64,000 bases of DNA from Haloterrigena alkaliphila (GCF_017352155.2 NZ_CP084319.1:62001-126000), one strand, 5' to 3'. Positions 33,750 to 61,009 are shown, counted from the first letter of the stretch. The notes: generated by a model not told the origin, from the letters alone. Numbers and translations are program-made.

Positions 33750-34580
33750 TTATTTCCAGTATCTCGCTGGCCCGGACCACTTCTCCGTACCCTGTTTCGG
33801 CGCATTTGCGTCTGCGAGCGACCGATTTTCGGTAGCGTAAACTGCAGGCGTGTTCGCATCGTCCCGGGCGGTCAACTCCTCCAATTCGGCGGCTGTGGTG
33901 CTCCCCGTCGGACGATCGAATCGAACCGAGCCGTCGACGATTCCGACGATCCGGTCGTAGTGAGCGACTGCGAGGTCCATGTCGTGGAGGACGGTAATCA
34001 CAGTCCGGCTCCCCGCGACATCCTCGAGGACGCCGAGGACGGTGGTGCTCGACGACGGGTCGAGATTGGCCGTCGGCTCGTCCGCGACGATGACGGGTGC
34101 GTCCTGCATCAGCGCTCGAGCGAACGCTACTCGCTGGCGCTCGCCCGCACTGAGCGTATCAGCTCGCGCGTCTGCCTTCTCGCCGATCCCAACGCGGTCG
34201 AGCAACTCGAGTGCGGGGGTCGGATCTCGCGGCGCGAGCGGTTCGAGCAACCCGCGCCACCAGGAGCGAGACGAACTACTGCCGACAAGCACGTTGGCCA
34301 GCGCAGTCCGCCGGTCGACGAGCGTGTGACCGGGATAGACGTGTGCGACGTCTGCGGAACGTAGGTAGTCGTCGTCGAGTCGAATGGTACCACTGTCCGG
34401 GGCCACTGCACCGCTCACGAGTCGAAGCAGCGTCGTCTTTCCGGCGCCCGAGGGACCGACGATGGCGACCCGCTCTCCGGCAGTGACGCTGAGCGTCACG
34501 TCGTCGACTACGACGTCGCTGTCGAATGTTTTGGTCACCCCGTCGAATCGTAACTCGCGGTATTGCTCAGTCGCTGTCAT
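33750..34580 (-). CDS. phnC: Phosphonate-type ABC transporter ATPase
   Basis: A 276-residue ABC ATPase. Walker A is GPSGAGKTTLL near residue 42, signature LSAGERQRVAFARAL near 150, Walker B VIVADEPTANLD near 172, switch His in TVLHDMDLA. Length and the layout match PhnC. It is translated with the binding-protein gene (14-base overlap). No permease gene adjoins it; the only PhnE-like permease in the window is at 60.1-61.0 kb. The family imports phosphonates, phosphite or other oxyanion/organophosphorus ligands. Confidence 0.88.
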   Translation of the reverse strand: MTATEQYRELRFDGVTKTFDSDVVVDDVTLSVTAGERVAIVGPSGAGKTTLLRLVSGAVAPDSGTIRLDDDYLRSADVAHVYPGHTLVDRRTALANVLVGSSSSRSWWRGLLEPLAPRDPTPALELLDRVGIGEKADARADTLSAGERQRVAFARALMQDAPVIVADEPTANLDPSSSTTVLGVLEDVAGSRTVITVLHDMDLAVAHYDRIVGIVDGSVRFDRPTGSTTAAELEELTARDDANTPAVYATENRSLADANAPKQGTEKWSGPARYWK

Positions 34581-35457
34581 CGTTCAGCAGCCCCATCATC
34601 CTGACAGCGTCATCTAACGCCTCGAAATCCTCGTGCCCGGTCGTAACGTACTTGTCGACGTTCTGCTGGTCTAGGATGGCGTCTCTCCCTTTCTCATCGA
34701 GACTGATGAAGGCGTCACTGATTCCCGAAACGGTTTCCTCGTCCAGGGTGTCGTTGACTGCCCACGGGTAGTCGGCGAACCCGGGCGTCCGCCACACTTC
34801 GGTGACCGTCTCGTCGACGGAACTCGTCTCGACGAGTCGGTCGTAAATACGGGCGTTGAGCGCGCCGATATCGCTGTTACCGCCGGACACCGTTTCCGCG
34901 ACGGCATCGTGGGCTCCGACGTGGGTGACCGATTTAAATGCTCGATCCGGAAAGAGGTCGTGACGCCTGCGCAGATAATAGGTCGGCATCACCGTTCCGC
35001 TAGTACTGAGGGGGTCGCCGAAAACCAGGTCTACCGAATCGGCGGTCCGCTTCACGTCGTCCATCGAGGTGACGGCCGTCGACTCGTGTGCGAGGAACAC
35101 GGAGTGCCAGTCGGTCCTCCCGCTTTTGCTCCCCACGACGATCGGTGTCGCGTTCACCCGCTGGTGAGCGAGAATATAGGAGACGCCCCCAAAGTAGCCG
35201 AGGTCGACCTGTTCAGCCGTCATCGCCTGGACGAGGCCGGCGTAATCCGACGTCGTGCGCAGGTCGACTGACACGTCCAGTTCGGACTCGAGATACGCGG
35301 CGAGTTCGGTATTTTGCTCGATAGCCGTGTCGGGGTCGACGTCCGGAATGACTCCCATAGTGAGCGTCGGGGAGCGCTGTCCGGTTTGGAGGCAACCGCC
35401 GACGAGGCCGGTCCCAACCGATCCGAGAACTGCCCGTCTCGTTCTAACAGTGGTCAC
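34567..35457 (-). CDS. phnD: PhnD-like solute-binding lipoprotein
   Basis: A 296-residue binding protein with a Tat/lipoprotein leader (TRRAVLGSVGTGLVGGC, lipobox Cys near residue 22). The PhnD fold is indicated by VDLGYFGGVSYILAHQ near residue 90 and the anion-binding DPLSTSGTVMPTYYL loop near 145, where Ser-Thr-Ser-Gly normally grips the phosphonate or phosphite group. It captures the ligand outside the cell for PhnC and a permease. It is the first gene of the phnD-phnC operon. The anion-binding loop is conserved, but the ligand could be any of several oxyanions. Confidence 0.85.
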   Translation of the reverse strand: MTTVRTRRAVLGSVGTGLVGGCLQTGQRSPTLTMGVIPDVDPDTAIEQNTELAAYLESELDVSVDLRTTSDYAGLVQAMTAEQVDLGYFGGVSYILAHQRVNATPIVVGSKSGRTDWHSVFLAHESTAVTSMDDVKRTADSVDLVFGDPLSTSGTVMPTYYLRRRHDLFPDRAFKSVTHVGAHDAVAETVSGGNSDIGALNARIYDRLVETSSVDETVTEVWRTPGFADYPWAVNDTLDEETVSGISDAFISLDEKGRDAILDQQNVDKYVTTGHEDFEALDDAVRMMGLLNDDSD

Positions 35458-35602: not shown

Positions 35603-35839
35603 ATGGAGATCGACGTGAGTGGCACAGTGTGCCCCCGGACGGTGCTAATCGTGAAACGGTGTCTGGAGGAACTCGAGCCCGGTGACGAACTCACGGTCGT
35701 CGGGGATTATCCGCCGGCAGAGCGGAGCATCCGACGCTCGTGTCACAAACACGGGTACGGCGTATCGACGGCGTCCACCACGGACTCCGAGTCGGAGTTC
35801 GCGCTGCGAATCCGCGTGACCAGCGCGGCAAAATCGTGA
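35603..35839 (+). CDS. TusA-like sulfur/selenium carrier, copy 1
   Basis: A 78-residue TusA/SirA-fold protein starting MEIDVSGTVCPRTVLIVK. The nucleophilic Cys is at residue 10, but the family motif CPxP reads CPRT here. GDYPPAERSIRRSCHK adds a second conserved Cys near residue 50, also present in copy 2 at 47.5 kb. TusA proteins carry persulfide sulfur, and related proteins are tied to selenium metabolism. The start at 35603 is chosen because upstream in-frame codons precede an unrelated stretch. It stands alone between phnD (divergent) and ridA (convergent). Confidence 0.82.
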   Translation: MEIDVSGTVCPRTVLIVKRCLEELEPGDELTVVGDYPPAERSIRRSCHKHGYGVSTASTTDSESEFALRIRVTSAAKS

Positions 35840-45885: not shown

Positions 45886-46530
45886 TCAGTCGGTGGTCCG
45901 CTCCAAATCCGTCTGGGAATCGATGTCTCTCGTCACGCCGGGATCGTCTACATCGACGAAGACGGTTCCTTCGTGGTTCTCGATGATGTCTCGACCGCCT
46001 CGATCGCCGGAAACGGTCGACAGCGCGTCGTAGTGCTGTCGACCGAACAGGACGGGATTCCCACGCCGACCCTCGTACGTGGGGGCGACGATGCTCCCGT
46101 CGCCGGTCGCGTACGCTGTTCGCAACGCGTCCACGGTCTGTGGACGAACGAACGGCATATCACCGAGCATGAAAACGGTAGCGTCCCAGTCCGCGTCGCG
46201 TGCGGCGTCGACGCCGATTCGGACCGACGCGCTCTGTCCCGACGCGAAGTTCTCGTTCGAGTGGATCGAGAGATCGAGATCGGCGAGAGCCGCCGCCACA
46301 CGGTCTTCCTCGTGACCGACGACGGCGACGATATCGTCGACGGACGACCGACACAGCGTCTCCGCCGCACGTCTCACGATGGGTGTCCCCTCGACGTCCG
46401 CAAGGAGTTTGTTCCCTCCCTCGAACCGGGTCCCCTTCCCCGCCGCGAGGATCACACCACCGATAGTATCGGCTTCATTACCGCCATCCGGCCCGTCGAC
46501 AGCCCGAGCCGTGTCTGACCGATCTGCCAT
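45886..46530 (-). CDS. mocA: MocA-type molybdenum cofactor cytidylyltransferase
   Basis: A 214-residue nucleotidyltransferase. GGVILAAGKGTRFEGGNKLL (residues about 24-43) is the nucleotide-binding motif of MobA/MocA enzymes, FMLGDMPFVRP near 120 has the metal-binding Asp, and TYEGRRGNPVLF near 151 is MocA-like. It would make molybdopterin cytosine dinucleotide for the hydroxylases encoded nearby; the E. coli counterpart in a YqeB/YqeC context is ygfJ. The start at 46530 (MADRSDT) is favoured over the much longer, arginine-rich upstream frame, which is a shadow of yqeC. It sits between the GNAT gene and yqeC, all on the minus strand. Confidence 0.88.
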   Translation of the reverse strand: MADRSDTARAVDGPDGGNEADTIGGVILAAGKGTRFEGGNKLLADVEGTPIVRRAAETLCRSSVDDIVAVVGHEEDRVAAALADLDLSIHSNENFASGQSASVRIGVDAARDADWDATVFMLGDMPFVRPQTVDALRTAYATGDGSIVAPTYEGRRGNPVLFGRQHYDALSTVSGDRGGRDIIENHEGTVFVDVDDPGVTRDIDSQTDLERTTD

Positions 46531-46643: not shown

Positions 46644-47405
46644 TCACGACGACTCGCTCTCGACGGGGAGGCAGACGTCTCGGTCGAACGACGTCACGAG
46701 GCCTCGGGTGAATCGAGTCGTTTCCTCGAGCGCGTGCTCGAGTACCGCTCGCGCCGTCTCTTGGTGGTCCGGCGTGTCCGCCTTGTTGATTACGGGTGTG
46801 ACGACTGCGGTATCGGGCACGTGTCGTAGTCCCCCGTCGGGACTTGCGAGCACGGTGCCGATCGTTTCGGGCGTGATCGTGTCGCCGACGGAGAGGTCGG
46901 TGATCGCGGCGACGCGTTCGGGACGGTGAACGACGGCTTCGGCGAGCGGTTCGCCGACGGCGTGCACTGAGGCAACGGGGACGACGTGAGTCGCCTCGTC
47001 TGGAACCACCGGCTCGTCGGTTCCGGGGGCCTTGAACTCCCGCCGTCGAGCTCCATCGGCTTTGACGAGGAGCCAGTCGACGAACCCACGATCGAGAACC
47101 GACGTCAGCGGCTCGGGATCGAACCCGCGAACTTTCCGGTCGACTCGTTCGGGATCGGCGACCCATTCGCTCGCGAACGCGACCGGTGGCTCGACTTCGA
47201 GCAGCGCGTCCGGCAGTCGCTCGGCGTTCGTGACCGTCAGCGGCAGATCGGGTGGCGGCATCTGTGTCGTCGTCGTGAACCCGACGCCGTACCCCTGCTC
47301 GGTTCCTTCTGTCGCGAGTCGGTGCATGGCGGTCTTCTTGCCGCCGGCACCGACGAACGCGACGAGCGCTCGGTCGCCGAGGCCCAGCGCGGTCGACAGT
47401 TCCAT
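46644..47405 (-). CDS. yqeC: Selenium-dependent hydroxylase accessory protein YqeC
   Basis: A 253-residue P-loop protein. The nucleotide loop FVGAGGKKTAMHRLA is near residue 17, and LLVKADGARRREFKAPGTDEPVV near 115 is the conserved central motif; VITPVINKAD near 203 resembles a GTPase NKxD element. YqeC is one of the marker proteins proposed for selenium-dependent molybdenum hydroxylase systems because it co-occurs with orphan selD and yqeB. Its biochemical role is unproven. It is co-directional with mocA, and divergent from the tusA-selD pair across a 107-base gap. Confidence 0.88.
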   Translation of the reverse strand: MELSTALGLGDRALVAFVGAGGKKTAMHRLATEGTEQGYGVGFTTTTQMPPPDLPLTVTNAERLPDALLEVEPPVAFASEWVADPERVDRKVRGFDPEPLTSVLDRGFVDWLLVKADGARRREFKAPGTDEPVVPDEATHVVPVASVHAVGEPLAEAVVHRPERVAAITDLSVGDTITPETIGTVLASPDGGLRHVPDTAVVTPVINKADTPDHQETARAVLEHALEETTRFTRGLVTSFDRDVCLPVESESS

Positions 47406-47512: not shown

Positions 47513-47761
47513 ATGACGCGAGTAGACGTGCGCGGAGAAATCTGTCCGCGGCCGGCGCTGATCGTCCGCCAGCAGCTCGCCGAACTGGAGACGGGCGACG
47601 AGTTACTCGTGCGAGGCGATTACCCCCCGGCGGAACGGAACCTCTGTCGAATGTGTCGCAAACGCGGGTTCACCGTCGCGAAGACCGAGGACGGAAGCGA
47701 CGAGAACGCGTTCGAGTTGCGCATCGAAGTGACCGACGACGCCGAGATTCCGGAGGCGTAG
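47513..47761 (+). CDS. TusA-like sulfur/selenium carrier, copy 2
   Basis: An 82-residue TusA/SirA-fold protein, MTRVDVRGEICPRPALIVRQ at the start with the nucleophilic Cys at residue 11 in a normal CPxP motif. The GDYPPAERNLCRMCRKRGF segment adds two further cysteines, one shared with copy 1. The gene ends three bases before selD begins, so the two are one transcript, which implicates this carrier directly in delivering selenium or sulfur to the SelD pathway. The start at 47513 avoids a basic upstream extension. Confidence 0.88.
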   Translation: MTRVDVRGEICPRPALIVRQQLAELETGDELLVRGDYPPAERNLCRMCRKRGFTVAKTEDGSDENAFELRIEVTDDAEIPEA

Positions 47762-47764
47762 TCG

Positions 47765-48808
47765 ATGAGCGACCGTTCCGACGACGGCACCGTACAGCTC
47801 ACCGAGTACGCCGACCTCCACGGCTGCTCCTGCAAGGTCGGTCAGAGCGATCTCGACGATCTCCTTCGGGACGCGGGGCTGACCGAATCTCGAGACGAAC
47901 TGCTGTTCGGCGTCGGCGAGGACGCCGCCGCGCGGCGACTGACCGACGATCTGGCGCTCGTTTCGACGGTCGATTTCTTCACGCCGATCATCGACGACCC
48001 CTACGACTTCGGTCGCGTCGCAGCGTGTAACGCCGCGAGCGACGCGTTCGCGACGGGGGCCGTCGACAACCTCGACTGTCTCGTCGTCCTCGGGCTCCCA
48101 CAGGAATTGACGGACACCGCCCCGAGGATCTTGGCCGGTATCGCCGATGCGATCGACGACATGGGCGGCGTGATCGCGGGCGGCCACACGATCGTCAGCC
48201 CGTGGCCGTTCGCCGGCGGTGCCATCTCTGCGACTGCACCGCCAGAGGCGCTGTTGCCGTCGCGGCAGGCGACGGCCGGAGACTCTCTCTACCTCACGAA
48301 ACCGCTCGGAACGCAGTCGGCGATGGGAGGACTGCGCGTTTCGGACGACGAGTTCGCCGACGTCGTCGCAGCGGCCACGGAACGGTCGGTTCAAACGATC
48401 GGCGACGAAGCGCTCGCCTGGATGACGACCCCGAACCGGGCCGCTGCAATGGCCAGTCGCGACGTCGCGACCGCGGCAACCGATATAACCGGGTTCGGTC
48501 TCGTCGGACAGGTGCAGGTCCTCGCCGACAACGCCGACGTGGGGATCGAGGTAACTAAGCTGCCGATCATCGAGGGAACCGACGACCTCTCGAGGCTGTT
48601 CGGGTACGGCCTCGAGGACGGCGAGAGCGCGGAAACCAGCGGCGGCTTGCTCCTGTCGGTCCCCGAGTCGCGGACTCCGACGCTCGAGTCCCGTCTCGAC
48701 GACGCTGACGTCTTCTACCGTCGTATCGGACGCGTCACCGACGGCGACGACGTGACGTTGCGCGATCCGACGATAGAACCGATCAGCCGGGAGAAACGAG
48801 ACAACTGA
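47765..48808 (+). CDS. selD: Selenide, water dikinase (selenophosphate synthase)
   Basis: A 347-residue AIR-synthase-superfamily enzyme. HGCSCKVGQSDL near residue 19 is the SelD catalytic loop, with Cys at 21 and 23 and Lys at 24 (Cys, not selenocysteine). DLALVSTVDFFTPIIDDPY near 60 and GGVIAGGHTIVSP near 137 are standard. It makes selenophosphate from selenide and ATP. No selA, selB, tRNA-Sec or selenouridine synthase gene is visible nearby. The surroundings (YqeC, YqeB, molybdenum hydroxylases) place it in the orphan-selD class devoted to a labile selenium cofactor. It converges on the xdhC-yqeB gene with a six-base gap. Confidence 0.94.
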   Translation: MSDRSDDGTVQLTEYADLHGCSCKVGQSDLDDLLRDAGLTESRDELLFGVGEDAAARRLTDDLALVSTVDFFTPIIDDPYDFGRVAACNAASDAFATGAVDNLDCLVVLGLPQELTDTAPRILAGIADAIDDMGGVIAGGHTIVSPWPFAGGAISATAPPEALLPSRQATAGDSLYLTKPLGTQSAMGGLRVSDDEFADVVAAATERSVQTIGDEALAWMTTPNRAAAMASRDVATAATDITGFGLVGQVQVLADNADVGIEVTKLPIIEGTDDLSRLFGYGLEDGESAETSGGLLLSVPESRTPTLESRLDDADVFYRRIGRVTDGDDVTLRDPTIEPISREKRDN

Positions 48809-48814
48809 CCGCCC

Positions 48815-50395
48815 TTAGCGGAGTTTCAGGACGGCCTCGAGGACGCCGCCGCCGAGACAGAGCGCTTTATCCGAAATTTTCGCCGGGTCGACGTCGTCGC
48901 CGCGCGGATCGATATCGCCGAGTTTCGTCCCTTCGTTGACCTCGAGTCCGCCGTGGACGAGACCGCGAACGAGGCCGTCGATTTCCGCGACCACGTCGGC
49001 GTTGCCGACGTGACCCACGGTCTCGCCCGCCGAAACGAGATCGCCGATTTCGACCACGGGCTCCCACAGCCCCTCATCCGGCGCGCGGAGGACCCGTTCG
49101 TGCGTGTAGCCGCGCCGTTCGCCCGGTTCGCCGTCGTACGGACTCGCCCGGCCGTCGTAGAAAACGCGACCTAACTCGTGGCCTCTGTCCGTCTCGACGA
49201 CGGTGTCGACGTCCTCGCCGGCTTCGAATCCGGGACCGAGACCGACGACCACGTCCGCGTCGTCGCGGCGGGTGCCCGTATCGGTCCGACCTTTCGCCAG
49301 TATCGCGTCGACGACCACGGCCGCATCGAGCGTCGCCGCGATCGAAGCCTCCGGGTCCTCGAGGACCGGTACCGCATCGTCCTCGAGTATCTCGATCGCC
49401 TCGTCCACGTCGGCCGCTCGGCGGCCGACGACGCCTTCGATCGAAACCTCGTCTTCGTACATCGCAGCCGCGAACGCCACCTTCCGTCGAACGACGGTCG
49501 GTCGCTCGACCTCGGTCACCACGACCGGATACCCGGCCTGGTGCAGTCGGTAGACGACGCCGCTTCCGAGGTCGCCGCCGCCCCGGACGACGACGAGGTC
49601 GTCGAGATTCAGTCGCGTCGCGCGCTGTCCGTCAGCACCGTACCGATCCATGTTCACCTCCGAGAGGATCGCCAGCGCGACGTCTTCCGGGCCGCTCCCG
49701 CCGAGATCGAGCCCGACTGGTGCCCTGACCCGCGCGAGTTGTCGCCGGCTGTACCCCTCCTCGGCGAGCGAATCGACGACGTGTTCCGCCTTCGTGTCGC
49801 TGGCGACGAGGCCGACGTAGCCGGCGTTTCCGTCGAGCGCCGCCGCGACGGCGCGCTGATCGAACGTCCCGCTGCGCGTCGCCACCGCGACCGATGTTTC
49901 GGCCGTCATCGGGAGCTCGGACAGCGTTTCCCCGTACTCTCCGTGGATGACGTTCGTGTCGTTCGGGAACGCATCAGGGTCGGCGTACTCCTCGCGGTCG
50001 TCGATCACCGTAACGTCGTACCCCAACTGCTCCGCCAGCGCCGCGAGTTCGACGCTGATGTGGCCGCCACCGGCGATGTAGAGGCGTGCCCGTCCGCGAA
50101 TTCGTTCGATGAAGACGTCCATCGAGCCGCCACAGACCATGCCGGTGTTCCCGCCGGGCTCGAGTTCGTACGTTCGAACGCCGGAGTCGACCTCACCGTC
50201 CAGCACTGCTCGCGCGTCCTCGACGGCGAGGTGTTCGACCGTTCCGCCGCCGATCGTGCCGTAGTCGCCGTCCGCGGTGACGAGCATTCGATCCCCGACG
50301 TCCCTGGGTGCGCTCCCGTCCTTGTCGACGATCGTCAGCATCGCAGCCGGCTCGCCGTCGTCGACCAGTTCGGTGACTCGTTCGAACACGCTCAT
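48815..50395 (-). CDS. yqeB: XdhC-YqeB fusion, selenium-dependent molybdenum hydroxylase maturation protein
   Basis: A 526-residue fusion. The N-terminal 250 residues are XdhC/CoxI-like: MLTIVDKDGSAPRDVGDRML, GTIGGGTVEH, and an NAD-like loop LYIAGGGHISVELA near residue 131. From about residue 260 the YqeB/EF2563 family follows: LVVVRGGGDLGSGVVYRLHQ, EVERPTVVRRKVAFA, and a C-terminal GLGPGFEAG plus the DKALCLGGGVLEAVL tail. XdhC sulfurates and inserts the molybdenum cofactor, and YqeB is a marker of selenium-dependent hydroxylases, so the fusion suggests one protein handles both cofactor insertion and selenium loading. It is translationally coupled to the DsrH-like gene upstream (ATGA overlap). 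Confidence 0.9.
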   Translation of the reverse strand: MSVFERVTELVDDGEPAAMLTIVDKDGSAPRDVGDRMLVTADGDYGTIGGGTVEHLAVEDARAVLDGEVDSGVRTYELEPGGNTGMVCGGSMDVFIERIRGRARLYIAGGGHISVELAALAEQLGYDVTVIDDREEYADPDAFPNDTNVIHGEYGETLSELPMTAETSVAVATRSGTFDQRAVAAALDGNAGYVGLVASDTKAEHVVDSLAEEGYSRRQLARVRAPVGLDLGGSGPEDVALAILSEVNMDRYGADGQRATRLNLDDLVVVRGGGDLGSGVVYRLHQAGYPVVVTEVERPTVVRRKVAFAAAMYEDEVSIEGVVGRRAADVDEAIEILEDDAVPVLEDPEASIAATLDAAVVVDAILAKGRTDTGTRRDDADVVVGLGPGFEAGEDVDTVVETDRGHELGRVFYDGRASPYDGEPGERRGYTHERVLRAPDEGLWEPVVEIGDLVSAGETVGHVGNADVVAEIDGLVRGLVHGGLEVNEGTKLGDIDPRGDDVDPAKISDKALCLGGGVLEAVLKLR

Positions 50396-50637
50396 ACGAA
50401 GTTTTTCACCTCGTTCTCGACTATCAGGTCGATTAAATCGTCGTACGTGATCTCCTCGATTTCCTCGGGGAGGTCGACGCCGCGGACGGCGACGTCTTTC
50501 TCGACGGCGTAGAGTTCCGCGTCGAGCGCCGGAGACAGGAACACGCCGTCCTGTACGAGGACGACGCGTGCCTCCGGGTCGTCCGCCGCAGTTCGAAGTC
50601 CGATATCCGCCATGGGTTCGTCTATCAGGTATAGCAT
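50392..50637 (-). CDS. DsrH/TusB-like small protein
   Basis: An 81-residue protein starting MLYLIDEPMADIGLRTAA, with VLVQDGVFLSPAL near residue 27 and a C-terminal helix YDDLIDLIVENEVKNFV. This matches the short DsrH/TusB fold that forms a hexamer with DsrE and DsrF in sulfur-relay complexes. It has no cysteine in the DsrH active-site position, so it may be structural. It is the last of three consecutive DsrE-fold genes and overlaps the yqeB start by four bases. Confidence 0.75.
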   Translation of the reverse strand: MLYLIDEPMADIGLRTAADDPEARVVLVQDGVFLSPALDAELYAVEKDVAVRGVDLPEEIEEITYDDLIDLIVENEVKNFV

Positions 50638-50639
50638 GG

Positions 50640-50993
50640 TTAGAAGTCCAGAACGCAATCGGCGTCCCGAATGCGCGCCGAAACCTCGTCGCCGGCGCGA
50701 ACGGTCACGTCGTCGGCGATCTCGTCGGCGGAGATACCGCGCTCCGTCATCGCGGCGGCGTCGGCGATCATCGTTCCGTCCTGTTCCCGCAGATCGGCGA
50801 CGTGGCCCGGCATGTTCAGCGCGTCTCGGTCGACGTCGCTTCGGGCGGCGTAGGTGCCGTCTTCCGTGAAGACGACCGTGACGTCGTGCTGGTCGAACCC
50901 CGCGGCGACGCCCCGCGCCGCTCGCAGCCCCTCCGGGACGTGCACGCGTCCGTACGGCGCTCGAGTCAGTAACACGACGACGTCGCGTTTCAT
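50640..50993 (-). CDS. DsrF/TusC-like protein
   Basis: A 117-residue DsrE-fold protein: MKRDVVVLLTRAPYGRVHVP at the N-terminus, VTVVFTEDGTYAARSDVDRD in the middle and a C-terminal ARIRDADCVLDF. The RAPYG element is shared with DsrF/TusC. It is translated directly after the DsrE-like gene (ATGA overlap) and two bases before the DsrH-like gene. Together the three give an operon equivalent to dsrEFH/tusDCB, encoded between yqeB and the first hydroxylase. Confidence 0.78.
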   Translation of the reverse strand: MKRDVVVLLTRAPYGRVHVPEGLRAARGVAAGFDQHDVTVVFTEDGTYAARSDVDRDALNMPGHVADLREQDGTMIADAAAMTERGISADEIADDVTVRAGDEVSARIRDADCVLDF

Positions 50994-51361
50994 AGCGATA
51001 TCACTCGGTCCGCGTCGCCGATCATGTCCGCCAGATCCGGGAGGAGTCCGACCTCGACGCCGTCCGGATAGTCGTCCGGCGCGTCGATACCGCGGGCGTC
51101 GACGCAGAGGCCACAACAGATCACTTCGGCTCCATCAGCGATGAGTTCCTGAAACTTCTCCGTCGGCATCTCGTCGTAGAGGCCGGTGTCCGAACAGTCG
51201 GGAAACGTCTGTCCGTCGACGGGCACGAGTGCCCCGTCGAGGTAGTGAAAGAACGAAACTTCGTGGCCTTTCCCGAGCGCCGCCTTTCCGAGTTCGTACG
51301 CCGTTCGCCAGCGCTCGCTGTCGAAGGGCCCGCCGGTCAGTAGAATCCCGATGGAAGCCAT
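50990..51361 (-). CDS. DsrE/TusD-like protein
   Basis: A 123-residue DsrE-fold protein. MASIGILLTGGPFDSERWRT leads into the family fold, and EVICCGLCVDARGI near residue 82 has three cysteines, the last of which aligns with the TusD/DsrE sulfur-accepting Cys (CxxxRG context). It is the first gene of the trio. In TusBCD and DsrEFH this subunit receives sulfur from TusA or hands it on. Beside selD and tusA it is a candidate selenium/sulfur acceptor. Confidence 0.8.
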   Translation of the reverse strand: MASIGILLTGGPFDSERWRTAYELGKAALGKGHEVSFFHYLDGALVPVDGQTFPDCSDTGLYDEMPTEKFQELIADGAEVICCGLCVDARGIDAPDDYPDGVEVGLLPDLADMIGDADRVISL

Positions 51362-51471: not shown

Positions 51472-53931
51472 CTAGTCGTCGCGTTCGTCGAGGGCCCGTT
51501 TGATGTCGTCGGCCGTGACGGGAAGGGAGTCGACGCGGACGCCGACGGCGTCACGGATCGCGTTGCTGAGCGCCGGCGGAACGCCGTTCGTGGGGAGCTC
51601 GGCGATCGACTTCGCGCCGAACGGCCCGGTCGGTTCGTGCGTTTCGACGATAATCGTCTCCATCGGCGGGTGATCGGTCGTTCGCGGCATTCCGTACTGC
51701 CGGAAACCGAGCACCTCCGGATTCCCCTCGTCGTCGAACTCCAGTCCGCCGCTGGTGGCGTACTCGAGGCTCATGTGCTCACCACCCTCGATCTGCCCTT
51801 CGACGAGCGCGGGGTTGATTGCAACGCCGCAGTCGGCGGCGAACGCCATTTCGTTGATCTCGTACTCGCCGGTTTCTTCGTTCACGGTCACGTCGACGAA
51901 CTGGGCGCCGTACGGCGGCGGACTTTCGTCCGTCGAGTGATTACCCTTGCCGAGGATGTGTTCGCGGTCGTCGTGGCCGTACGTCGCTTCGTACCCGATC
52001 TCCTCCAGCGACACGCCGTCGCCGGTCACCTCGCTGTACACCTGCCCGTCGCCCGTCTTCAGGTTCTCGACGGATTCGTCGAGCATCTTCGACCCCCAGT
52101 GAACGAGCCGCTCCCGCGCGTCCTCGGCCGCTTCCTTGACGGCTTGACCGCTGATGTAGGTCGTCGAGGAGGCGTACGCGCCGTAGTCGAACGGCGTCAG
52201 GTCGGTGTCCGAGGAGATGACGACGATATCCGCGGGCTCACAGCCCAGAACCTCCGCGGCGACCTGGCTGAACATCGTGTCGGAGCCGGTGCCGGTGTCG
52301 ACGCCGCCGACCTGGAGGTGGAACGAGCCGTCCTCGTTCATCTTGATCTGGGCCGCGCCGAGTTCCCGCCCGGCGACGCCGCTGCCCTGGGCGATCATCG
52401 CCATTCCGACGCCACGGTGGCGGTGTGGCTCCGCGGGCTGCTCGATATCGTCGTAGCCGATGGCCTCCTTCCCGCGCTCGATGCACTCGCGGAGTCCGCA
52501 CGACCGTATCTCCCGGCTGAACCGCTCGCCGTCTTTCAGTATGGTGACGTTCCGGTCGATATCGCCCTCTCGAACGGCGTTGCGTTTGCGGAACTCGATC
52601 GGATCGAAGTCCAGCCGGCGCGCGACCTCGTCCATGTGCGACTCGACCGCGAAATGGCCCTGCGGGGCGCCGTATCCGCGCATCGCCGCACCCATCGGCA
52701 GGTTCGTGTGGACGACGTCGCCCTCGAACCTGACGTTCGGAACGCGCGGATACAGCGGGAGCGGTTTCGTTCCGACGTTGGTCGCGACGGTCATCCCGTG
52801 GGTGCCGTACGCCCCCGAGTTCGACAGCGTGTACAGCTCCATCGCCTCGAGCGTTCCGTCCTCGTCCACCGCTGTCCGCATGCGCATCTGCATCGGATGG
52901 CGAAACCGGAGCGCGTAGAACTCCTCGCGGCGGGTCATCTCCAGCTTGACCGGCCGGTCGGCCGCCAGATGGAGTGCGAACGCGATCGGTTCGATCGCCA
53001 TCTCCTGTTTCGCGCCGAACCCGGCCCCGATGCGCGGTTTCGTGACGCGGACGTCGCGAATGGGAACGTCGAACAGATGCGCGATCTGCCGACGGGTGTG
53101 GAACGGAACCTGCGTCGCGGTGATGAACGAGTACCGGTCGTCCTCGTCCGTGTGGACGATCGTCGTGTGGGGTTCGGGGACACAGTGTGACTGGTACGGT
53201 GTTTCCCATTCCGTCTCGATCACCCGGTCGTCGTCCGTTCGATCGAACGCCCGTTCGACGTCGCCTCGCTCGCCCTCGAAGTGAGACTCGAGGTTCCGCT
53301 CGTAGTCGGCACCGCGCTGTTTGTTCTCGACCTCGTCGGGATCGAATAACTGTGGCGCGTCCGGATCCGTCGCCGTCTCGGGGTCGAGGACGGGTTCCAG
53401 TTCCTCGTATTCGACGTCGATCGTCCGCGCGGCGCGGTCGGCCGTCTCCGCGTCCGTTGCGGCGATCGCTGCGATGGGATCGCCGACGTATCGAACGTGT
53501 TCCCTGAGCACGCGCAGATCCCACGGACTCGGTTCGGGGTAGGACTGGCCCGAACTCGAGTACGCTTTGTCGGGCACGACGTCGTCCCACGGCGTGATCA
53601 CAGCGTGCACGCCGTCCATCGCTTCGGCCTCGCTCGTATCGAGGTCACGGACGTAGCCGTGTGCGATTTCGCTTCGGATCACTTTCCCTTCGGCGAGCTC
53701 CGGGAATCGATCGCGGTAATCGGCCGTGTAACGGGCCTCCCCGGTGACGATCTTTCGAGCGTCGTCTTTCTCGACGTCCTCGGTCAGATGTTCGCGCTCG
53801 TCCCGGGATTTCCGGTCGTCCGCAGCCACCTCACTCTCCCCCGGAAACGCGTCCGCTTCCGTGGCCTCCTCCTCCGCCCGATCGCCGTCGGGTCTCTCGT
53901 TCCGTCCCGGTGTCTCTTCCAGATTGCTCAT
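51472..53931 (-). CDS. Molybdenum hydroxylase large subunit (XDH family), paralogue 1
   Basis: An 819-residue molybdopterin-binding subunit of the xanthine dehydrogenase family, in the selenium-dependent group by context. An acidic linker of about 55 residues precedes the DARKIVTGEARYTADY start of the a/b-hammerhead domain. VTKPRIGAGFGAKQEMA near residue 290 is the first cofactor loop, AMRGYGAPQGHFAVE near 415 the second, and GAKSIAELPTNGVPPA near 775 carries the catalytic Glu (about residue 778). It should hydroxylate a purine or related N-heterocycle. It is coupled by ATGA overlap to its [2Fe-2S] subunit gene. No FAD subunit gene accompanies it. Confidence 0.92.
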   Translation of the reverse strand: MSNLEETPGRNERPDGDRAEEEATEADAFPGESEVAADDRKSRDEREHLTEDVEKDDARKIVTGEARYTADYRDRFPELAEGKVIRSEIAHGYVRDLDTSEAEAMDGVHAVITPWDDVVPDKAYSSSGQSYPEPSPWDLRVLREHVRYVGDPIAAIAATDAETADRAARTIDVEYEELEPVLDPETATDPDAPQLFDPDEVENKQRGADYERNLESHFEGERGDVERAFDRTDDDRVIETEWETPYQSHCVPEPHTTIVHTDEDDRYSFITATQVPFHTRRQIAHLFDVPIRDVRVTKPRIGAGFGAKQEMAIEPIAFALHLAADRPVKLEMTRREEFYALRFRHPMQMRMRTAVDEDGTLEAMELYTLSNSGAYGTHGMTVATNVGTKPLPLYPRVPNVRFEGDVVHTNLPMGAAMRGYGAPQGHFAVESHMDEVARRLDFDPIEFRKRNAVREGDIDRNVTILKDGERFSREIRSCGLRECIERGKEAIGYDDIEQPAEPHRHRGVGMAMIAQGSGVAGRELGAAQIKMNEDGSFHLQVGGVDTGTGSDTMFSQVAAEVLGCEPADIVVISSDTDLTPFDYGAYASSTTYISGQAVKEAAEDARERLVHWGSKMLDESVENLKTGDGQVYSEVTGDGVSLEEIGYEATYGHDDREHILGKGNHSTDESPPPYGAQFVDVTVNEETGEYEINEMAFAADCGVAINPALVEGQIEGGEHMSLEYATSGGLEFDDEGNPEVLGFRQYGMPRTTDHPPMETIIVETHEPTGPFGAKSIAELPTNGVPPALSNAIRDAVGVRVDSLPVTADDIKRALDERDD

Positions 53932-54473
53932 TTCGATCGGCCCTCCTCACGGGGGCAAGTCGAGGGGAACTCCTCGCAGCGGCTTTCCCCGCCGTCTGCC
54001 GCCACGGTCTGCTCACCGTCCATCCGGTCCGCGGCGTCGAGAACCGCTTCGACGATCTTCTTGTAGCCGGTACACCGGCAGAGGTTGTCCGCCAGCGCTT
54101 CCCGCACCTCCGTCTCGGTCGGATCCGGGTTCGTCTCCAGTAGCGCCTTCGAACGCATGATCATGCCCGGGATACAGAAGCCACATTGGAGCGCCGAGTT
54201 GTCAACGAACGCCTGCTGAAGCGGGTGGAGATCGCTCTGCGACCCCAGTCCTTCGATCGTTTCCACCGTCGATCCGGCGACTTTCGCGGCCGGCGTGACA
54301 CAGGACATCGCCGGTTCGCCGTCGATTTGGACCGTGCACATCCCGCACGCGCCCGTATCACAGCCGCGTTTCGGGCCGGTGTAGCCGTTTCGCCGCAGTA
54401 CGTCCAGCAAGACGTCCGATTTCTCCGCTTCGAACGTCCGTCGTTGGCCGTTTAGCTCTAGTTCGAGTTGCAT
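53928..54473 (-). CDS. Hydroxylase [2Fe-2S] subunit, paralogue 1
   Basis: A 181-residue CoxS/XdhC-type small subunit. The plant-type cluster has Cys at 38, 43, 46 and 58 (GCDTGACGMC and later SC). The second cluster has Cys at 97, 100, 132 and 134 (QCGFCIPGM, LCRCTGY). The start at 54473 (MQLELELNG) is chosen over 54482, three codons upstream. It carries electrons away from the molybdenum centre of paralogue 1. It has a Ser/Cys-rich acidic tail after residue 155. It is the first gene of the two-gene operon. Confidence 0.93.
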   Translation of the reverse strand: MQLELELNGQRRTFEAEKSDVLLDVLRRNGYTGPKRGCDTGACGMCTVQIDGEPAMSCVTPAAKVAGSTVETIEGLGSQSDLHPLQQAFVDNSALQCGFCIPGMIMRSKALLETNPDPTETEVREALADNLCRCTGYKKIVEAVLDAADRMDGEQTVAADGGESRCEEFPSTCPREEGRSK

Positions 54474-54807
54474 GAGTCTCATCGTGGGAGAGAGACCCTC
54501 CCTTCCTCCGAGTATCGGTCTCGAGAACCTAAATAGCTACTCCGAAGTGTGACGATAGCGGTCGGAAGCGAAAGAGAGAATCGCCGGCGAACGGACGATA
54601 TCGCGAATCAGCGGCCATTTGCGAGTGAATCGGTCGTCCGAGCGGGCGTACTCGTCGACAGTGCCGAACTGCCAAGCGAACGCGGCCGAGACAACGTCGC
54701 GTGGAACGGGGACCGATCCTCCCACAGCGGGCAAACGCCGCCACATTTTCCACGCGAACGGGACACACCAGTACGTTAATCCCGAGCCGTCGAAAACTCG
54801 AGACGGT
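54474..54807. other. Divergent intergenic region
   Basis: About 330 bases between the [2Fe-2S] gene 1 (minus) and pdxS (plus). No gene recognised; it should hold both promoters. Confidence 0.5.
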
Positions 54808-55722
54808 ATGACGAGCGACGATCGAACCGACCTGACGGAGCTCGAGCGAGGCACTGAACTCGTCAAACAGGGGTTCGCTCGCATGCAGAAAGGCGGCGTC
54901 ATCATGGACGTCGTCAATCGCGAGCAGGCCCGCATTGCGGAAGACGCCGGCGCCGTCGCAGTGATGGCGCTGGAGGCCGTCCCGGCGGACATTCGTAAAC
55001 GCGGTGGCGTCGCCCGGATGCCCGACCCCGCCGACATCGAGGCCATCCTCGACGAGGTGTCGATCCCGGTGATGGGCAAAGCGCGGATCGGCCACACGAT
55101 GGAGGCACGGATTCTGGAGGCAGTTGGCGTCGACATGATCGACGAAAGCGAAGTGCTGACGCCCGCCGACGACGCCTACCACATCGACAAACGGGAGTTC
55201 TCCGCCCCCTTCGTTTGCGGGGCGCGCAACCTCGGCGAGGCGCTGCGCAGAATCGACGAAGGCGCGGCCATGATCCGCACGAAGGGCGAGGCCGGGACCG
55301 GCGACGTAAACCAGGCGGTTCACCACCAGCGCACCATCAAGGGCTCGATCCGCAAATTGGAGGGAATGGCCCACGAAGAGCGCGAACGGTGGGCCCGCGA
55401 GAACGACGCACCCGCAGAGCTGGTCCACGAAACGGCCGACCTGGGACGGCTGCCGGTCGTCAACTTCGCCGCCGGCGGCATCGCGACGCCCGCCGACGCC
55501 GCGCTGATGATGCATCACGGCTGTGACGGTATCTTCGTCGGCAGCGGCATCTTCGGCGCCGAGGAACCGGCGTCGATGGCCGATGCCATCGTCCGAGCGA
55601 CGAACAACTGGGACGCCCCCGACCGGCTCGCCGAAATCAGCAAAGATATCGGGAACGGGATGCGCGGCGACGCGAACGCTTCGCTCTCCGACGAAGAGAA
55701 ACTGCAGGGTCGCGGCGTGTAG
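54808..55722 (+). CDS. pdxS: Pyridoxal 5'-phosphate synthase lyase subunit
   Basis: A 304-residue PdxS/SNZ protein, starting at 54808 (MTSDDRTD), the codon that gives the usual length. GGVIMDVVN near residue 30, [18 protein letters not shown] near 90 (catalytic Lys region) and [15 protein letters not shown] near 220 are all standard. It combines ribose 5-phosphate, glyceraldehyde 3-phosphate and ammonia into PLP together with PdxT, which is not in view. It separates the two hydroxylase operons and is probably a housekeeping gene between them. Confidence 0.95.
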
Positions 55723-55809
55723 TACGGTGTCTCGGTAGGCGTGTCGCACAGACACCCGGCGGCCACGACGACTGGTTAGCGGATAAGATCGAAGTCGAAA
55801 GCAGACGCT

Positions 55810-58257
55810 CTACTTCTCGTCGAGCGCCGTCTTGATCTTCTCGGCGGTAACGGGCATCTCGTTGATGCGCACGCCGACGGCCTCTCGAATCGCGTTACTG
55901 AGCGCCGGCGGCACCGTGTTGGTCGGCACCTCCGCGACGGATTTCGCGCCGAACGGCCCCGTCGGCTCGTGGGTCTCGACGAGAATGCTCTCGATCGGCG
56001 GCGTCTCCGTCGCCGACGGAAGCCCGTACTCGTCGAAGTCCGAGACTTCCGCGCGGCCCCGCTCGTCGACGGTGATACCCTCACTGACGGCCATCTCGAA
56101 GCTCATGTGATTGGCGCCCTCGACCTGCCCCTCCGCCATTCCGGGGTTGATCGCGACCCCGCAGTCGACGGCGACGACGAGTTGATTGACCTCGAACTCG
56201 CCCGTCTGCTCGTCGACGGTCACGTCCACGAACTGCGCGGCGAACGGCGGCGGACTCTCCTCCGTGGAGTGCGTTCCCTTGCCGAGGATGTGCTCTCGAT
56301 CGTCGTGACCGTACACCGACTCGTAGCCGACGTCTTCGAGCGTCACCGTCTCACCGGTCTCCTCGCTGTACACCTCGCCGTCGCGCGTCTCCAGGTTTTC
56401 CGCGGATTCGTCGAGCATCCGCGACGCCCACTCGAGGATGCGCTCTTTGGCGTCCTCGGCGGCCTTCTTCACCGCCATCCCGCTGATGTAGGTCGTCGAG
56501 GAGGCGTACGCGCCGTAGTCGAACGGCGTGTTATCGGTGTCGGAGGATTTGACGATGATATCATCCTCGTCACAGCCGAGCACCTCGGCGGCGATCTGGA
56601 TGAACGCCGTATCCGCGCCCGTGCCGATGTCGACGCCGCCGACCTGGAGGTGGAACGAGCCGTCCTCGTTCATCATGATCTGTGCGGCGCCGAGTTCGTC
56701 GCCGGCGACGCCGGTCCCCTGGGCCGACAGGGCCATGCCGATGCCGCGGTGGCGGTGTGGCTCCGAAGGTTGCTCGAGGTCGTCCCAGCCGATGGCTTCC
56801 TTGCCGCGCTCGATGCACTCGTCGAGACCGCAGGAACGGATACGACGCTCCGCGCCCTCGCCGCCCATCATGCCGGCGATCTCGTCCAGATCGCCGACCT
56901 CCATGTAGTGTCGCCGGCGGAATTCGATCGGATCGAGGTCGAGATCCCGCGCGACCTCGTCCAGGTGACCTTCGAGAGCGAGCGTCCCCTGAGGGGCGCC
57001 GTACCCCCGCATCGCACCGGTCTGTGGCGTGTTCGTGTGGACGATGTCGGCCTCGAAGCGAGCGTTCGGTACCTTCGAGTACAGCGGCATCGGCTTGCTG
57101 CCGACGTTCCCGGCGACGGTCATCCCGTGGCTTCCGTACGCGCCGGTGTTCGAGAGCGCGTAGAGGTCGATCGCTTCGATCGTCCCGTCGTCGGTGACTG
57201 CCGTCCGCGCACGAACCTTCATCGGGTGACGCGAGCGCATCGCGTAGAACTCTTCGTCGCGGGAGGCTTCGTACATGACGGGACGATCCGCCGCGAGCGA
57301 CAGCGCGAGCGGAATCGGTTCGACGACCATCGCCTGTTTGCCGCCGAAACCACCACCAACGCGAGGTTTCTTCACTCTGATGTCCCGAATCGGAATATCG
57401 AACAGGTGTGCCAGTTGGCGGCGAGTGTGGTTCGGGACCTGCGTACTCGTGATGAGCACTTTTCGGTCGTCTTCGTCGGTGTAGGCGAGCGACGTGTGTT
57501 TCTCGATCTGTGCGTGGGACTGCCGGATGGTTTCCCACTCGGTCTCGTGGACGTGCGCGTCCTCGCGCTCGAGCGCGGCGTCGACGTCCCCGATCTCGCC
57601 CTCGATGTTGGACATCCGGTTGCGGTCGTAGTCGTGGCCGACGATCTTGTTCTCGACCTCGTCGTCGCCGAACAGTTGCGGCGCGTCCTCGTCGAACGCT
57701 TCCTCCGGGTCGACGACGTGGTCGTACTCCTCGTACTCGACCTCGATGGCGTCGACCGCGGCCGCAGCCGTAGTCGCGTCCTCGGCCGCGACCGCCGCGA
57801 GCGGATCGCCGACGTAGCGGACGTGCTCGTTGAGCACGTTCATGTCCCACGGGCTCGGTTCGGGGTACGACTGGCCGGCGCTCGTGTACTTCGCGTCCGG
57901 CACGTCGTCGGACCACGGGGTGAGAACGGCGTAGACGCCGTCCAGTTCCTCGGCCTCGGCCGTGTCGATGGCCGTCACGCGGCCGTGTGGAACCTCGCTG
58001 CGGACGACCGCGGCGTGAGCGAGATCCGGGAACCGTTCCTCGTAGTCCGCGGTGTACTTGGCCTGGCCGGTGACGAGCTTTCGGTCGTCGAACTTTTCGG
58101 CCGTCTGGGAAACGCTCTTTCGCTCCCCTGGAGCCTTGTTGTTGTTCGCCGGTTCGTCCCACTCGAGTGGGTGGTCTTCGTACTCCTGTGGCTCTTCCGA
58201 GGTCGGCTTCGACGCGGTACCGCCGTCGGTCTGCGGATCGTTCGGGTCGTCACTCAT
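55810..58257 (-). CDS. Molybdenum hydroxylase large subunit (XDH family), paralogue 2
   Basis: An 815-residue paralogue of the 51.5-53.9 kb subunit, with a 65-residue acidic/Asn-rich linker before KFDDRKLVTGQAKYTADY. VKKPRVGGGFGGKQAMVVE near residue 295 is the usual cofactor loop (Gly-Gly-Gly-Phe-Gly-Gly-Lys-Gln), AMRGYGAPQGTLALE the second, and GAKSVAEVPTNTVPPALSNA near 775 carries the catalytic Glu (about 776). The conserved cofactor loop is closer to the standard XDH form than in paralogue 1. The start at 58257 gives an eight-base overlap with the [2Fe-2S] gene 2. Two paralogues suggest two substrates, for instance hypoxanthine/xanthine and a second purine. Confidence 0.92.
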   Translation of the reverse strand: MSDDPNDPQTDGGTASKPTSEEPQEYEDHPLEWDEPANNNKAPGERKSVSQTAEKFDDRKLVTGQAKYTADYEERFPDLAHAAVVRSEVPHGRVTAIDTAEAEELDGVYAVLTPWSDDVPDAKYTSAGQSYPEPSPWDMNVLNEHVRYVGDPLAAVAAEDATTAAAAVDAIEVEYEEYDHVVDPEEAFDEDAPQLFGDDEVENKIVGHDYDRNRMSNIEGEIGDVDAALEREDAHVHETEWETIRQSHAQIEKHTSLAYTDEDDRKVLITSTQVPNHTRRQLAHLFDIPIRDIRVKKPRVGGGFGGKQAMVVEPIPLALSLAADRPVMYEASRDEEFYAMRSRHPMKVRARTAVTDDGTIEAIDLYALSNTGAYGSHGMTVAGNVGSKPMPLYSKVPNARFEADIVHTNTPQTGAMRGYGAPQGTLALEGHLDEVARDLDLDPIEFRRRHYMEVGDLDEIAGMMGGEGAERRIRSCGLDECIERGKEAIGWDDLEQPSEPHRHRGIGMALSAQGTGVAGDELGAAQIMMNEDGSFHLQVGGVDIGTGADTAFIQIAAEVLGCDEDDIIVKSSDTDNTPFDYGAYASSTTYISGMAVKKAAEDAKERILEWASRMLDESAENLETRDGEVYSEETGETVTLEDVGYESVYGHDDREHILGKGTHSTEESPPPFAAQFVDVTVDEQTGEFEVNQLVVAVDCGVAINPGMAEGQVEGANHMSFEMAVSEGITVDERGRAEVSDFDEYGLPSATETPPIESILVETHEPTGPFGAKSVAEVPTNTVPPALSNAIREAVGVRINEMPVTAEKIKTALDEK

Positions 58258-58795
58258 TGGAATCACCGTCGTAAGCAGTGTCGTCGGGTCGGTGTGAGTC
58301 AATCCGTGAGCCGCCGTCGGCCGCGACCGATCGATCGCCGCGCATTCGGTCGGCGGCGTCGAGGATCGCTTCGACGGGTTTCTGATAGCCGGTACACCGG
58401 CAGAGGTTATCGTCGATGGCCTGGCGTACCTCGGCTTCGGTCGGATCGGGATTGGTCGCGAGTAGCGATTTGGCCTCGATTATCATGCCGGGAATACAGA
58501 AGCCACATTGGACGGCGAAGTGATCGACGAACGCCTCCTGAATCGGATGGAGGTCGTCTTGCGTCCCGAGCGCCTCGATCGTTTCGACCTCTGCACCGTC
58601 GACGTTCTGAGCGTCCACGCCGCAGGCCATCTTCACGTCGCCGTCGACGAACACTTTCGATGCGCCACAGACGCCACTATCGCAGCCACACTTCACGCCC
58701 GTGTAGCCGTTCCGTCGCAGTACCGTCGCCAGGTCGTCGTCCGATTCGACCGCCACAGTCGTCGATTCGTCGTTGATCGTTAGTTCGATTTCCAC
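58250..58795 (-). CDS. Hydroxylase [2Fe-2S] subunit, paralogue 2, altered cluster motif
   Basis: A 181-residue small subunit, same length as paralogue 1, starting at GTG 58795. The second cluster is normal (Cys 97, 100, 132, 134). The first cluster reads VKCGCDSGVCGASKVF: Cys 38, 43 and 58 align with the ligands, but the third ligand, Cys 46 in paralogue 1, is Ser 46, and an extra Cys appears at 36. The nucleotide sequence supports this directly. The cluster may use Cys 36 or Ser 46 as a ligand, or be altered in potential. It is coupled to the large-subunit gene by an eight-base overlap. Confidence 0.9.
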   Translation of the reverse strand: MEIELTINDESTTVAVESDDDLATVLRRNGYTGVKCGCDSGVCGASKVFVDGDVKMACGVDAQNVDGAEVETIEALGTQDDLHPIQEAFVDHFAVQCGFCIPGMIIEAKSLLATNPDPTEAEVRQAIDDNLCRCTGYQKPVEAILDAADRMRGDRSVAADGGSRIDSHRPDDTAYDGDSNE

Positions 58796-60124: not shown

Positions 60125-61009
60125 ATGACCGAAGATACCCAACGGCACGCCGGGGCCGATCTACACGGTAGTCGTACGCTTCTCTCGAAACGATCACTAT
60201 CGTACGTGTTCGCGGTGACGGTAGTTCTCGCAGTAGTCGGGTGGATCGTCGGCGTTGATCCGTTCCTCCTGCTGTCGTCGGACGCTCGCGGCCAGATGTG
60301 GTCGCTCGTCATCGAAGGATACCCGCCGGACGTCAGCCGCGATTTTCTGCTCGGCAGAACGCTCCGAGGAGGATTGCTGTGGGCGATCGTCGAAACGTTC
60401 GCGATCAGTATCGTCGGCACCTCCTTCGCCGTCGTCTTCGCGATCCCGCTCGCGCTCGCGAGCGCATCGACCGTTACACATCAGGGACCGCTGTATGCTG
60501 GTGCGTCCTCCTCGCGAATCGTCCTCGGATACGCACTCCAACGCGGTGCTAGACTCCTGTTGAGTTTTCTCCGATCGGTCCCCGGTCTCGTCTGGGGATT
60601 TCTCTTCGTCACCGCCGTGGGACTGGGACCGTTCGCCGGCGCGCTCGCGCTCGGCGTTCACAACACGGGCGTGCTCGGTAAACTGTACGCGGACTTCCTC
60701 GAGGATACGGATCCGATGACGACCGAAGCGGTCGCGTCGAGCGGGGCGACGCGGTTCCAGGCCGTCTGTCACGGGATGGTCCCGCAGATATCGGCGACGG
60801 TGGCGTCGTACACGCTCTATAGGTGGGAGTGTACCATCCGCTCGGCGACGATACTCGGCTTCGTCGGCGCCGGCGGGATCGGTTACTACCTCGTCATCTC
60901 GATTCAGCGGTTACAGTATCAGAAACTCGTCACCGCGATCGTCGCGGTGTTCGCGCTCGTGGTGATGTCCGACGCGCTCGCATCGCGACTTCGCGCCCGG
61001 ATGGTGTGA
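60125..61009 (+). CDS. phnE: Phosphonate-type ABC transporter permease
   Basis: A 294-residue inner-membrane permease with about six spans. AVASSGATRFQAVCHGMVPQ near residue 205 is the EAA-type coupling loop with the family Gly. GFVGAGGIGYYLVISIQRLQ near 250 is the conserved PhnE tail. It starts at 60125 (MTEDTQRH). It should pair with PhnC and PhnD encoded 25 kb away, since no ATPase or binding-protein gene is adjacent. The long cytoplasmic N-terminus (about 30 residues) is normal. The permease, ATPase and binding protein are thus split by the hydroxylase island. Confidence 0.85.
   Translation: MTEDTQRHAGADLHGSRTLLSKRSLSYVFAVTVVLAVVGWIVGVDPFLLLSSDARGQMWSLVIEGYPPDVSRDFLLGRTLRGGLLWAIVETFAISIVGTSFAVVFAIPLALASASTVTHQGPLYAGASSSRIVLGYALQRGARLLLSFLRSVPGLVWGFLFVTAVGLGPFAGALALGVHNTGVLGKLYADFLEDTDPMTTEAVASSGATRFQAVCHGMVPQISATVASYTLYRWECTIRSATILGFVGAGGIGYYLVISIQRLQYQKLVTAIVAVFALVVMSDALASRLRARMV

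Follow-up and report, generated by a model that had tools for sequence, protein, structure and literature searches.

A TusA/DsrEFH-type gene set in the selenium-cofactor locus of haloarchaea: a candidate selenium carrier

Results

Gene content of the selD locus of Haloterrigena alkaliphila

The window analyzed here is a 64-kb stretch of DNA (64,000 nucleotides) from Haloterrigena alkaliphila, in which genes were called by six-frame reading and profile searches. It lies on a 285-kb contig of this haloarchaeal genome, probably a secondary replicon. The features, by position in the window, are as follows.

33750-34580, minus strand: PhnC-like ABC ATPase, partner of the adjoining putative selenate-type binding protein
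34567-35457, minus strand: substrate-binding protein of an ABC transporter, matched best by "putative selenate ABC transporter" (TIGR04553, 196 bits, under the cut-off of 250)
35606-35839, plus strand: tusA2, a second TusA paralog, adjoining the selenate-type ABC transporter genes
45886-46530, minus strand: mocA/ygfJ-like nucleotidyltransferase (TIGR03310, 149 bits, under the curated cut-off of 186)
46644-47405, minus strand: yqeC, selenium-cofactor biosynthesis protein (TIGR03172, 191 bits)
47513-47761, plus strand: tusA1, TusA-family carrier (PF01206, 8e-18) with a CPRP motif (Cys11) and a second invariant Cys48
47765-48808, plus strand: selD, selenophosphate synthetase with a C-S-C-K active-site motif (TIGR00476, 264 bits; cut-off 125)
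48815-50395, minus strand: xdhC-yqeB fusion (TIGR03309, 360 bits; cut-off 220) with XdhC_CoxI and XdhC_C domains
50392-50637, minus strand: dsrH-like (TusB-like), 81 aa, 0 Cys (PF04077, 26.8 bits; cut-off 24.4; TM0979 match, 1.4e-7)
50640-50993, minus strand: dsrF-like (TusC-like), 117 aa (PF02635, 42 bits; cut-off 22.7; 1.4e-10; 2hy5_B DsrF, 1.6e-6)
50990-51361, minus strand: dsrE-like (TusD-like), 123 aa (PF02635, 74 bits; cut-off 22.7; 1.7e-20)
51472-53931, minus strand: xdhA_1, molybdenum hydroxylase large subunit (profile searches)
53928-54482, minus strand: [2Fe-2S] subunit of the hydroxylase (profile search)
55810-58302, minus strand: xdhA_2, second molybdenum hydroxylase large subunit (profile search and tree)
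60137-61003, plus strand: PhnE-like permease with 67% identity to phnE, the neighbor of phnD/phnC in the selenium locus of Haloarcula pNG700

The same locus also encodes an adenine deaminase, a xanthine permease and moeA. The xdhC-yqeB fusion joins an XdhC domain for Moco binding/maturation to the selenium-cofactor protein YqeB, and the xdhA_1 product is probably a client of the selenium cofactor. With selD, yqeB, yqeC and a molybdenum hydroxylase present and genes for Sec or SeU missing, the gene content is that of the selenium-cofactor (SDMH) trait.

The gene calls bore out the observation of an earlier note on this DNA that tusA stops three bases ahead of selD (spacing, 3 nt). The earlier note also described three overlapping DsrE-fold genes adjoining yqeB. 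The adjacency was confirmed, as were 4-nt overlaps at the dsrE/dsrF and dsrH/xdhC-yqeB junctions; however, dsrF and dsrH are separated by a 2-nt gap. The dsrE-dsrF-dsrH-yqeB run on the minus strand is convergent to tusA-selD on the plus strand. Selection on the tusA, selD, trio and yqeB genes is purifying (dN well below dS for all). DsrE of the window is 92% identical to the plasmid copy of Haloterrigena turkmenica and 99% identical to that of Natrinema sp. DC36.

Three side observations concern gene arrangement. The ABC transporter genes are split between opposite ends of the locus (ATPase/binding protein, 33750-35457; permease, 60137-61003); in Haloarcula pNG700, they form one contiguous run. 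The tusA2 paralog is present in 7/22 SelD-containing genomes of the survey below. A putative PdxS-like (pyridoxal 5'-phosphate synthase) ORF lies at 54619-55722 on the plus strand, opposite to the hydroxylase genes that it separates, and has a match in 2/34 related loci, the window counted.

Family membership and conserved cysteines

The three adjacent genes of the trio belong to the DsrE, DsrF and DsrH families (Pfam PF02635/PF02635/PF04077), an identity established directly by the profile matches. Scores for the trio were under the curated NCBIfam cut-offs for TusB, TusC and TusD (30.2 vs 49.2, 32.4 vs 94.2 and 21.6 vs 89.3); the trio is therefore DsrEFH-like and non-canonical as TusBCD. The reading of the genes as DsrE/TusD-, DsrF/TusC- and DsrH/TusB-like thus holds at the level of Pfam families and falls short at the level of curated TusB/C/D families. 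The single-polypeptide YedF profile (TIGR03527) was matched by the TusA domain alone, at ~33 bits against a cut-off of 110.

Alignment of the 22 SelD-containing genomes revealed four invariant cysteines in DsrE: C56, C82, C83 and C86. The CCGLC cluster recognized earlier in this protein is C82-C83-G-L-C86, unchanged in 22/22 genomes. Cys78 of Allochromatium DsrE carries sulfur, and Cys78 of E. coli TusD is its equivalent (PMC3397948). C83 of the haloarchaeal protein aligns with TusD Cys78 and takes the place of the active-site Cys; Cys86 is its invariant partner, and the two form a CGXC motif (C83-G-L-C86). TusA1 has the CPxP Cys (Cys11) and a second invariant Cys. No invariant Cys was found in DsrF or DsrH in the 22 aligned genomes. 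Sulfur oxidation in A. vinosum requires Cys20 of DsrH; haloarchaeal DsrH proteins have no Cys at that position, and E. coli TusB also lacks one there.

The CCGLC cluster was considered as a selenium-specific signature, and this idea was weakened by the presence of CxxC in SelD-unlinked haloarchaeal DsrE (CGTC) and methanogen DsrE (CPRC/CSRC). Because CxxC occurs in both of these groups, it is the extra C82 alone that sets selD-linked DsrE apart among the sequences compared. In the methanogen loci (L133-L140), the DsrE with CxxC is encoded in a dsrE-dsrF-dsrH trio, which in several of them adjoins helix-turn-helix regulator-like and arsenate-reductase-like ORFs. Confidence in the AlphaFold models was low, with a pLDDT of 53 for DsrE and 61 for DsrH. 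A Foldseek search with the low-confidence DsrE model placed YchN, TusD and DsrE near the top, which agrees with the sequence calls and carries little weight.

Co-occurrence of the trio with SelD

We surveyed 292 genomes of the class Halobacteria, with E < 1e-100 taken as true SelD, and found SelD in 22. Full-length DsrE (63-100% identity), DsrF (61-100%) and DsrH (58-100%) were present in exactly these 22 genomes, at the selD locus every time, and the selD-adjacent TusA was found in 22/22. Intact DsrE, DsrF or DsrH occurred in 0/270 SelD-less genomes, and the 292 genomes contained no intact copy of the selD-linked TusA outside the 22. This SelD-exclusive co-occurrence, a trait also of YedF, is directly observed. 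The earlier note had assigned the trio to the selenium module and asked whether it is equally frequent without selD; the distribution (22/22 vs 0/270) strongly supports the assignment and shows no such equality. Because all four proteins are present in every SelD-containing genome sampled and intact in no SelD-less genome, they probably perform a dedicated selenium-handling step for the selenium-containing enzyme cofactor.

A naive Fisher test of the co-occurrence gave 1e-33, a value that treats genomes as independent and overstates the support, because the genes are inherited as one block and the 22 co-occurrences are not independent events. The cluster moves and disappears as one unit, and it lies mostly on secondary replicons. 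More informative than the Fisher value are four genera (g1, g2, g43 and g70) that include both SelD-containing and SelD-less genomes, and in which the trio tracks SelD. A reverse search through DsrE in named GTDB genomes retrieved a single fossil besides 20 intact loci. Without exception, the intact loci, from Haloarcula, Halostella, Halorussus, Haladaptatus, Natrinema, Actinarchaeum and others, carry selD in the same locus, and 12 are additional to the 22.

Gene coupling and decay of the module

The 22 loci found through SelD and the 12 found through DsrE gave 34 non-redundant loci of 7-20 kb. All 34 hold tusA, selD, yqeB, dsrE, dsrF and dsrH; the presence of DsrE in the 12 loci is by construction, since DsrE was the query that found them. 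tusA adjoins selD in 34/34 loci, with a spacing within about 17 nt in 33. The -4 junction of dsrE/dsrF and the +2 junction of dsrF/dsrH are each kept in 31/34 loci, and the -4 overlap of dsrH/yqeB in 33/34. The tusA-selD and dsrH-yqeB couplings are thus established directly by gene order. Neighboring genes (adenine deaminase, permease, moeA, pdxS and cofC) differ in occurrence among the 34 loci (counts are lower bounds, because the loci span only 7-20 kb, some of them just 7-12 kb). The place of the hydroxylase beside the trio is taken by adenine deaminase in G118 and L123 and by a selenate-type transporter in L127; the trio stays with yqeB-selD in all three, although the hydroxylase sits elsewhere. 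In L130, ~7 kb separate the trio from yqeB, both on one contig.

Outside the SelD-containing genomes, the only traces of the trio among the 292 genomes were fossils in two SelD-less genomes. In Natronococcus jeotgali, the first 34 dsrE codons persist beside a hydroxylase gene of the SelD-less type. G073 retains the tail of dsrE, dsrF in damaged form and fragments of yqeB, and selD is gone. These two loci therefore indicate that the module decays as a unit, a loss that can be read directly from the remnants. The fossil dsrE/dsrF/yqeB pieces lie at L111 8020-8600 and L110 2260-2480.

Hydroxylases of SelD-less relatives

Eight SelD-less genomes encode hydroxylases 60-67% identical to XdhA_1, and searches for DsrE, DsrF and DsrH showed that the trio is absent from all eight. 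In a tree with midpoint rooting, the SelD-less hydroxylases formed a sister clade to SelD-linked XdhA_1 plus XdhA_2. Because the hydroxylase can be elsewhere, and because SelD-less hydroxylases occur without the trio, the trio follows SelD/YqeB and not the hydroxylase fold. The SelD-less hydroxylases likewise weakened the idea of the trio as a hydroxylase partner. Residues that split the SelD-less clade (L165-L171, L110) from the enzymes at 51472-58302 of the window may be markers of selenium dependence.

tRNA thiolation, selenouridine and Sec as targets

The DsrC/TusE acceptor was found in 0/22 SelD-containing genomes (the E. coli control was positive), as were the selenouridine synthase MnmH and, above their cut-offs, SelB and YedF. 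The SelB-like matches were all under cut-off and fit other translation-factor GTPases. Formation of tRNA s2U in Haloferax uses NcsA and SAMP2 (PMC4048286). tRNA thiolation via TusBCD was therefore rejected, on the absence of TusE/DsrC from the 22 genomes and the use of NcsA/SAMP2 for haloarchaeal s2U, and selenouridine and Sec were set aside in view of the missing MnmH and the sub-threshold SelB-like matches. With TusE/DsrC, MnmH, SelB and full-length YedF all absent, these three targets are unlikely.

Discussion

The DsrEFH/TusBCD complex is an alpha2-beta2-gamma2 hexamer that transfers persulfide. The haloarchaeal trio shares with it the gene order E-F-H, the three Pfam assignments and the active-site Cys at C83. 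It differs in scoring under the TusB/C/D cut-offs, in lacking DsrC/TusE and DsrH Cys20, in the additional Cys86 and Cys82 of DsrE, and in the tie of its genes to selD/yqeB. YedF fuses TusA to DsrE, contains a CGXC motif and is a recognized selenium marker that is reported absent in archaea (PMC5322559), and the comparison with it in the earlier note was apt. Both systems link a TusA-type unit and a DsrE-type unit to SelD, with CPxP and CGxC motifs, and YedF itself adjoins selD in several orphan-selD bacteria; however, the haloarchaeal units are separate genes, DsrF and DsrH are added, and the host is an archaeon.

Two further archaeal systems are relevant. Transcripts of TusAD in Methanococcus maripaludis (MMJJ_07490-50) rise 4.5-4.6 log2 on selenium depletion, and the authors related these genes to tRNA thiolation, which could not readily explain the selenium response (PMC11097638). 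This selenium-regulated TusA plus TusD/DsrE, likened here by description and not by sequence, is a pair, whereas the haloarchaeal set has a trio. In Metallosphaera, DsrE3A-DsrE2B-TusA, an archaeal DsrE hands groups to TusA in vitro (PMC4175335); there the cargo is thiosulfate, the process is sulfur oxidation, and the genes are linked to hdr genes.

The orphan-selD locus is already known. That of Haloarcula marismortui pNG700, fusion protein included, was described by Haft and Self 2008 and Zhang et al. 2008, and it has in common with the window the XdhC-YqeB fusion, SelD, YqeC, hydroxylases and a TusA (SirA-like) gene, which Zhang et al. entered as a distant homolog. The parts of these two papers that were consulted do not discuss the neighboring DsrE/F/H genes. 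In the pNG700 record, dsrE and dsrF are annotated as "DsrE family" and dsrH as "hypothetical protein". For a selenium role of the archaeal DsrEFH trio, we found no earlier proposal in the literature searched.

We consider it probable that the four genes encode a selenium-dedicated TusA/DsrEFH-type carrier, a split, multi-subunit archaeal counterpart of YedF in the selenium-cofactor locus. The best reading of the sequence data is that this carrier would serve SelD and/or selenium insertion by XdhC-YqeB. On balance, we lean toward a DsrEFH-type heterohexamer whose cargo has changed from sulfur to selenium and which together with TusA would be obligatory in the archaeal selenium-cofactor pathway and would provide a protein-bound selenium route to or from SelD. 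We infer selenium as the cargo and the following order of transfer. TusA1 would hold zero-valent selenium as a Cys11 seleno-persulfide and hand it to Cys83 of DsrE within a DsrE2F2H2 complex. Attack by Cys86 of the CGxC pair would free the selenium reductively as selenide, straight to SelD, which would convert it to selenophosphate. XdhC-YqeB would then use selenophosphate to put labile selenium on the Moco of XdhA enzymes. Delivery upstream of SelD is favored over delivery downstream because YedF/TusA-DsrE proteins track SelD across several selenium traits, also without YqeB, and because the M. maripaludis tusAD transcripts rise on selenium starvation. Several points count against the proposed carrier: it could instead transport sulfur, invariant Cys residues are missing from DsrF and DsrH, and SelD-unlinked archaeal DsrE also has CxxC.

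Translational coupling ties the trio to yqeB instead of selD and may be a sign that it acts after SelD: DsrEFH would take selenium from selenophosphate or TusA to the Moco on XdhC-YqeB, acting as an insertion factor. The 4-nt dsrH/yqeB overlap in 33/34 loci and the persistence of the trio beside yqeB when the hydroxylase moves are consistent with such a role, and Se-dependent purine use in C. difficile needs YqeB by a mechanism that is unexplained (PMC11448449). However, no need for a DsrEFH trio has been reported in bacteria with YqeB and the selenium cofactor, the distribution of YedF/TusA-DsrE proteins follows that of SelD also where YqeB is absent, and the L130 trio is distant from yqeB; we regard a role after SelD as a rather unlikely alternative. 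A relay that carries sulfur, parallel to the selenium pathway, and supplies the adjoining hydroxylases with their sulfido ligand or with the dithiolene sulfur of Moco appears still less probable. DsrEFH/TusBCD are established persulfide carriers (PMC3397948) and E. coli TusA supplies Moco sulfur (PMC4175335), but eight SelD-less haloarchaea keep related hydroxylases without the trio, and the trio is lost together with selD and can sit apart from the hydroxylase. The first of these points is tempered by the separate sister clade of the SelD-less hydroxylases, whose needs could differ.

It is very improbable that the trio is a bystander, an ordinary haloarchaeal sulfur-relay or redox operon hitch-hiking by linkage on the selenium block. 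The whole block is inherited together, and methanogen DsrEFH trios have no visible selenium link in the short flanks read; however, flanking genes vary over the 34 loci while tusA, selD, yqeB and dsrEFH are constant, and no intact trio outlives selD in the 270 SelD-less haloarchaea. Sulfur supply to the hydroxylase and hitch-hiking are thus both less likely than the selenium path. Marginally more improbable than hitch-hiking is a module for detoxification or storage of selenite/selenide instead of biosynthetic delivery. A role in selenium redox/detoxification has been proposed for the CGXC motif of YedF (PMC5322559), but the haloarchaeal trio is coupled to, and lost with, the biosynthetic selD and yqeB genes.

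The selenium-cofactor route has been called the least understood use of selenium (PMC11448449). At stake is the route by which selenium travels to SelD, avoiding free toxic selenide, and then onto the molybdenum cofactor. The selD-tied, yqeB-coupled trio is a named and testable candidate carrier, and it occurs in genera, Haloarcula among them, for which genetic tools already exist. The findings hint at an archaeal equivalent of YedF and may help to explain the response of methanogen tusAD to selenium.
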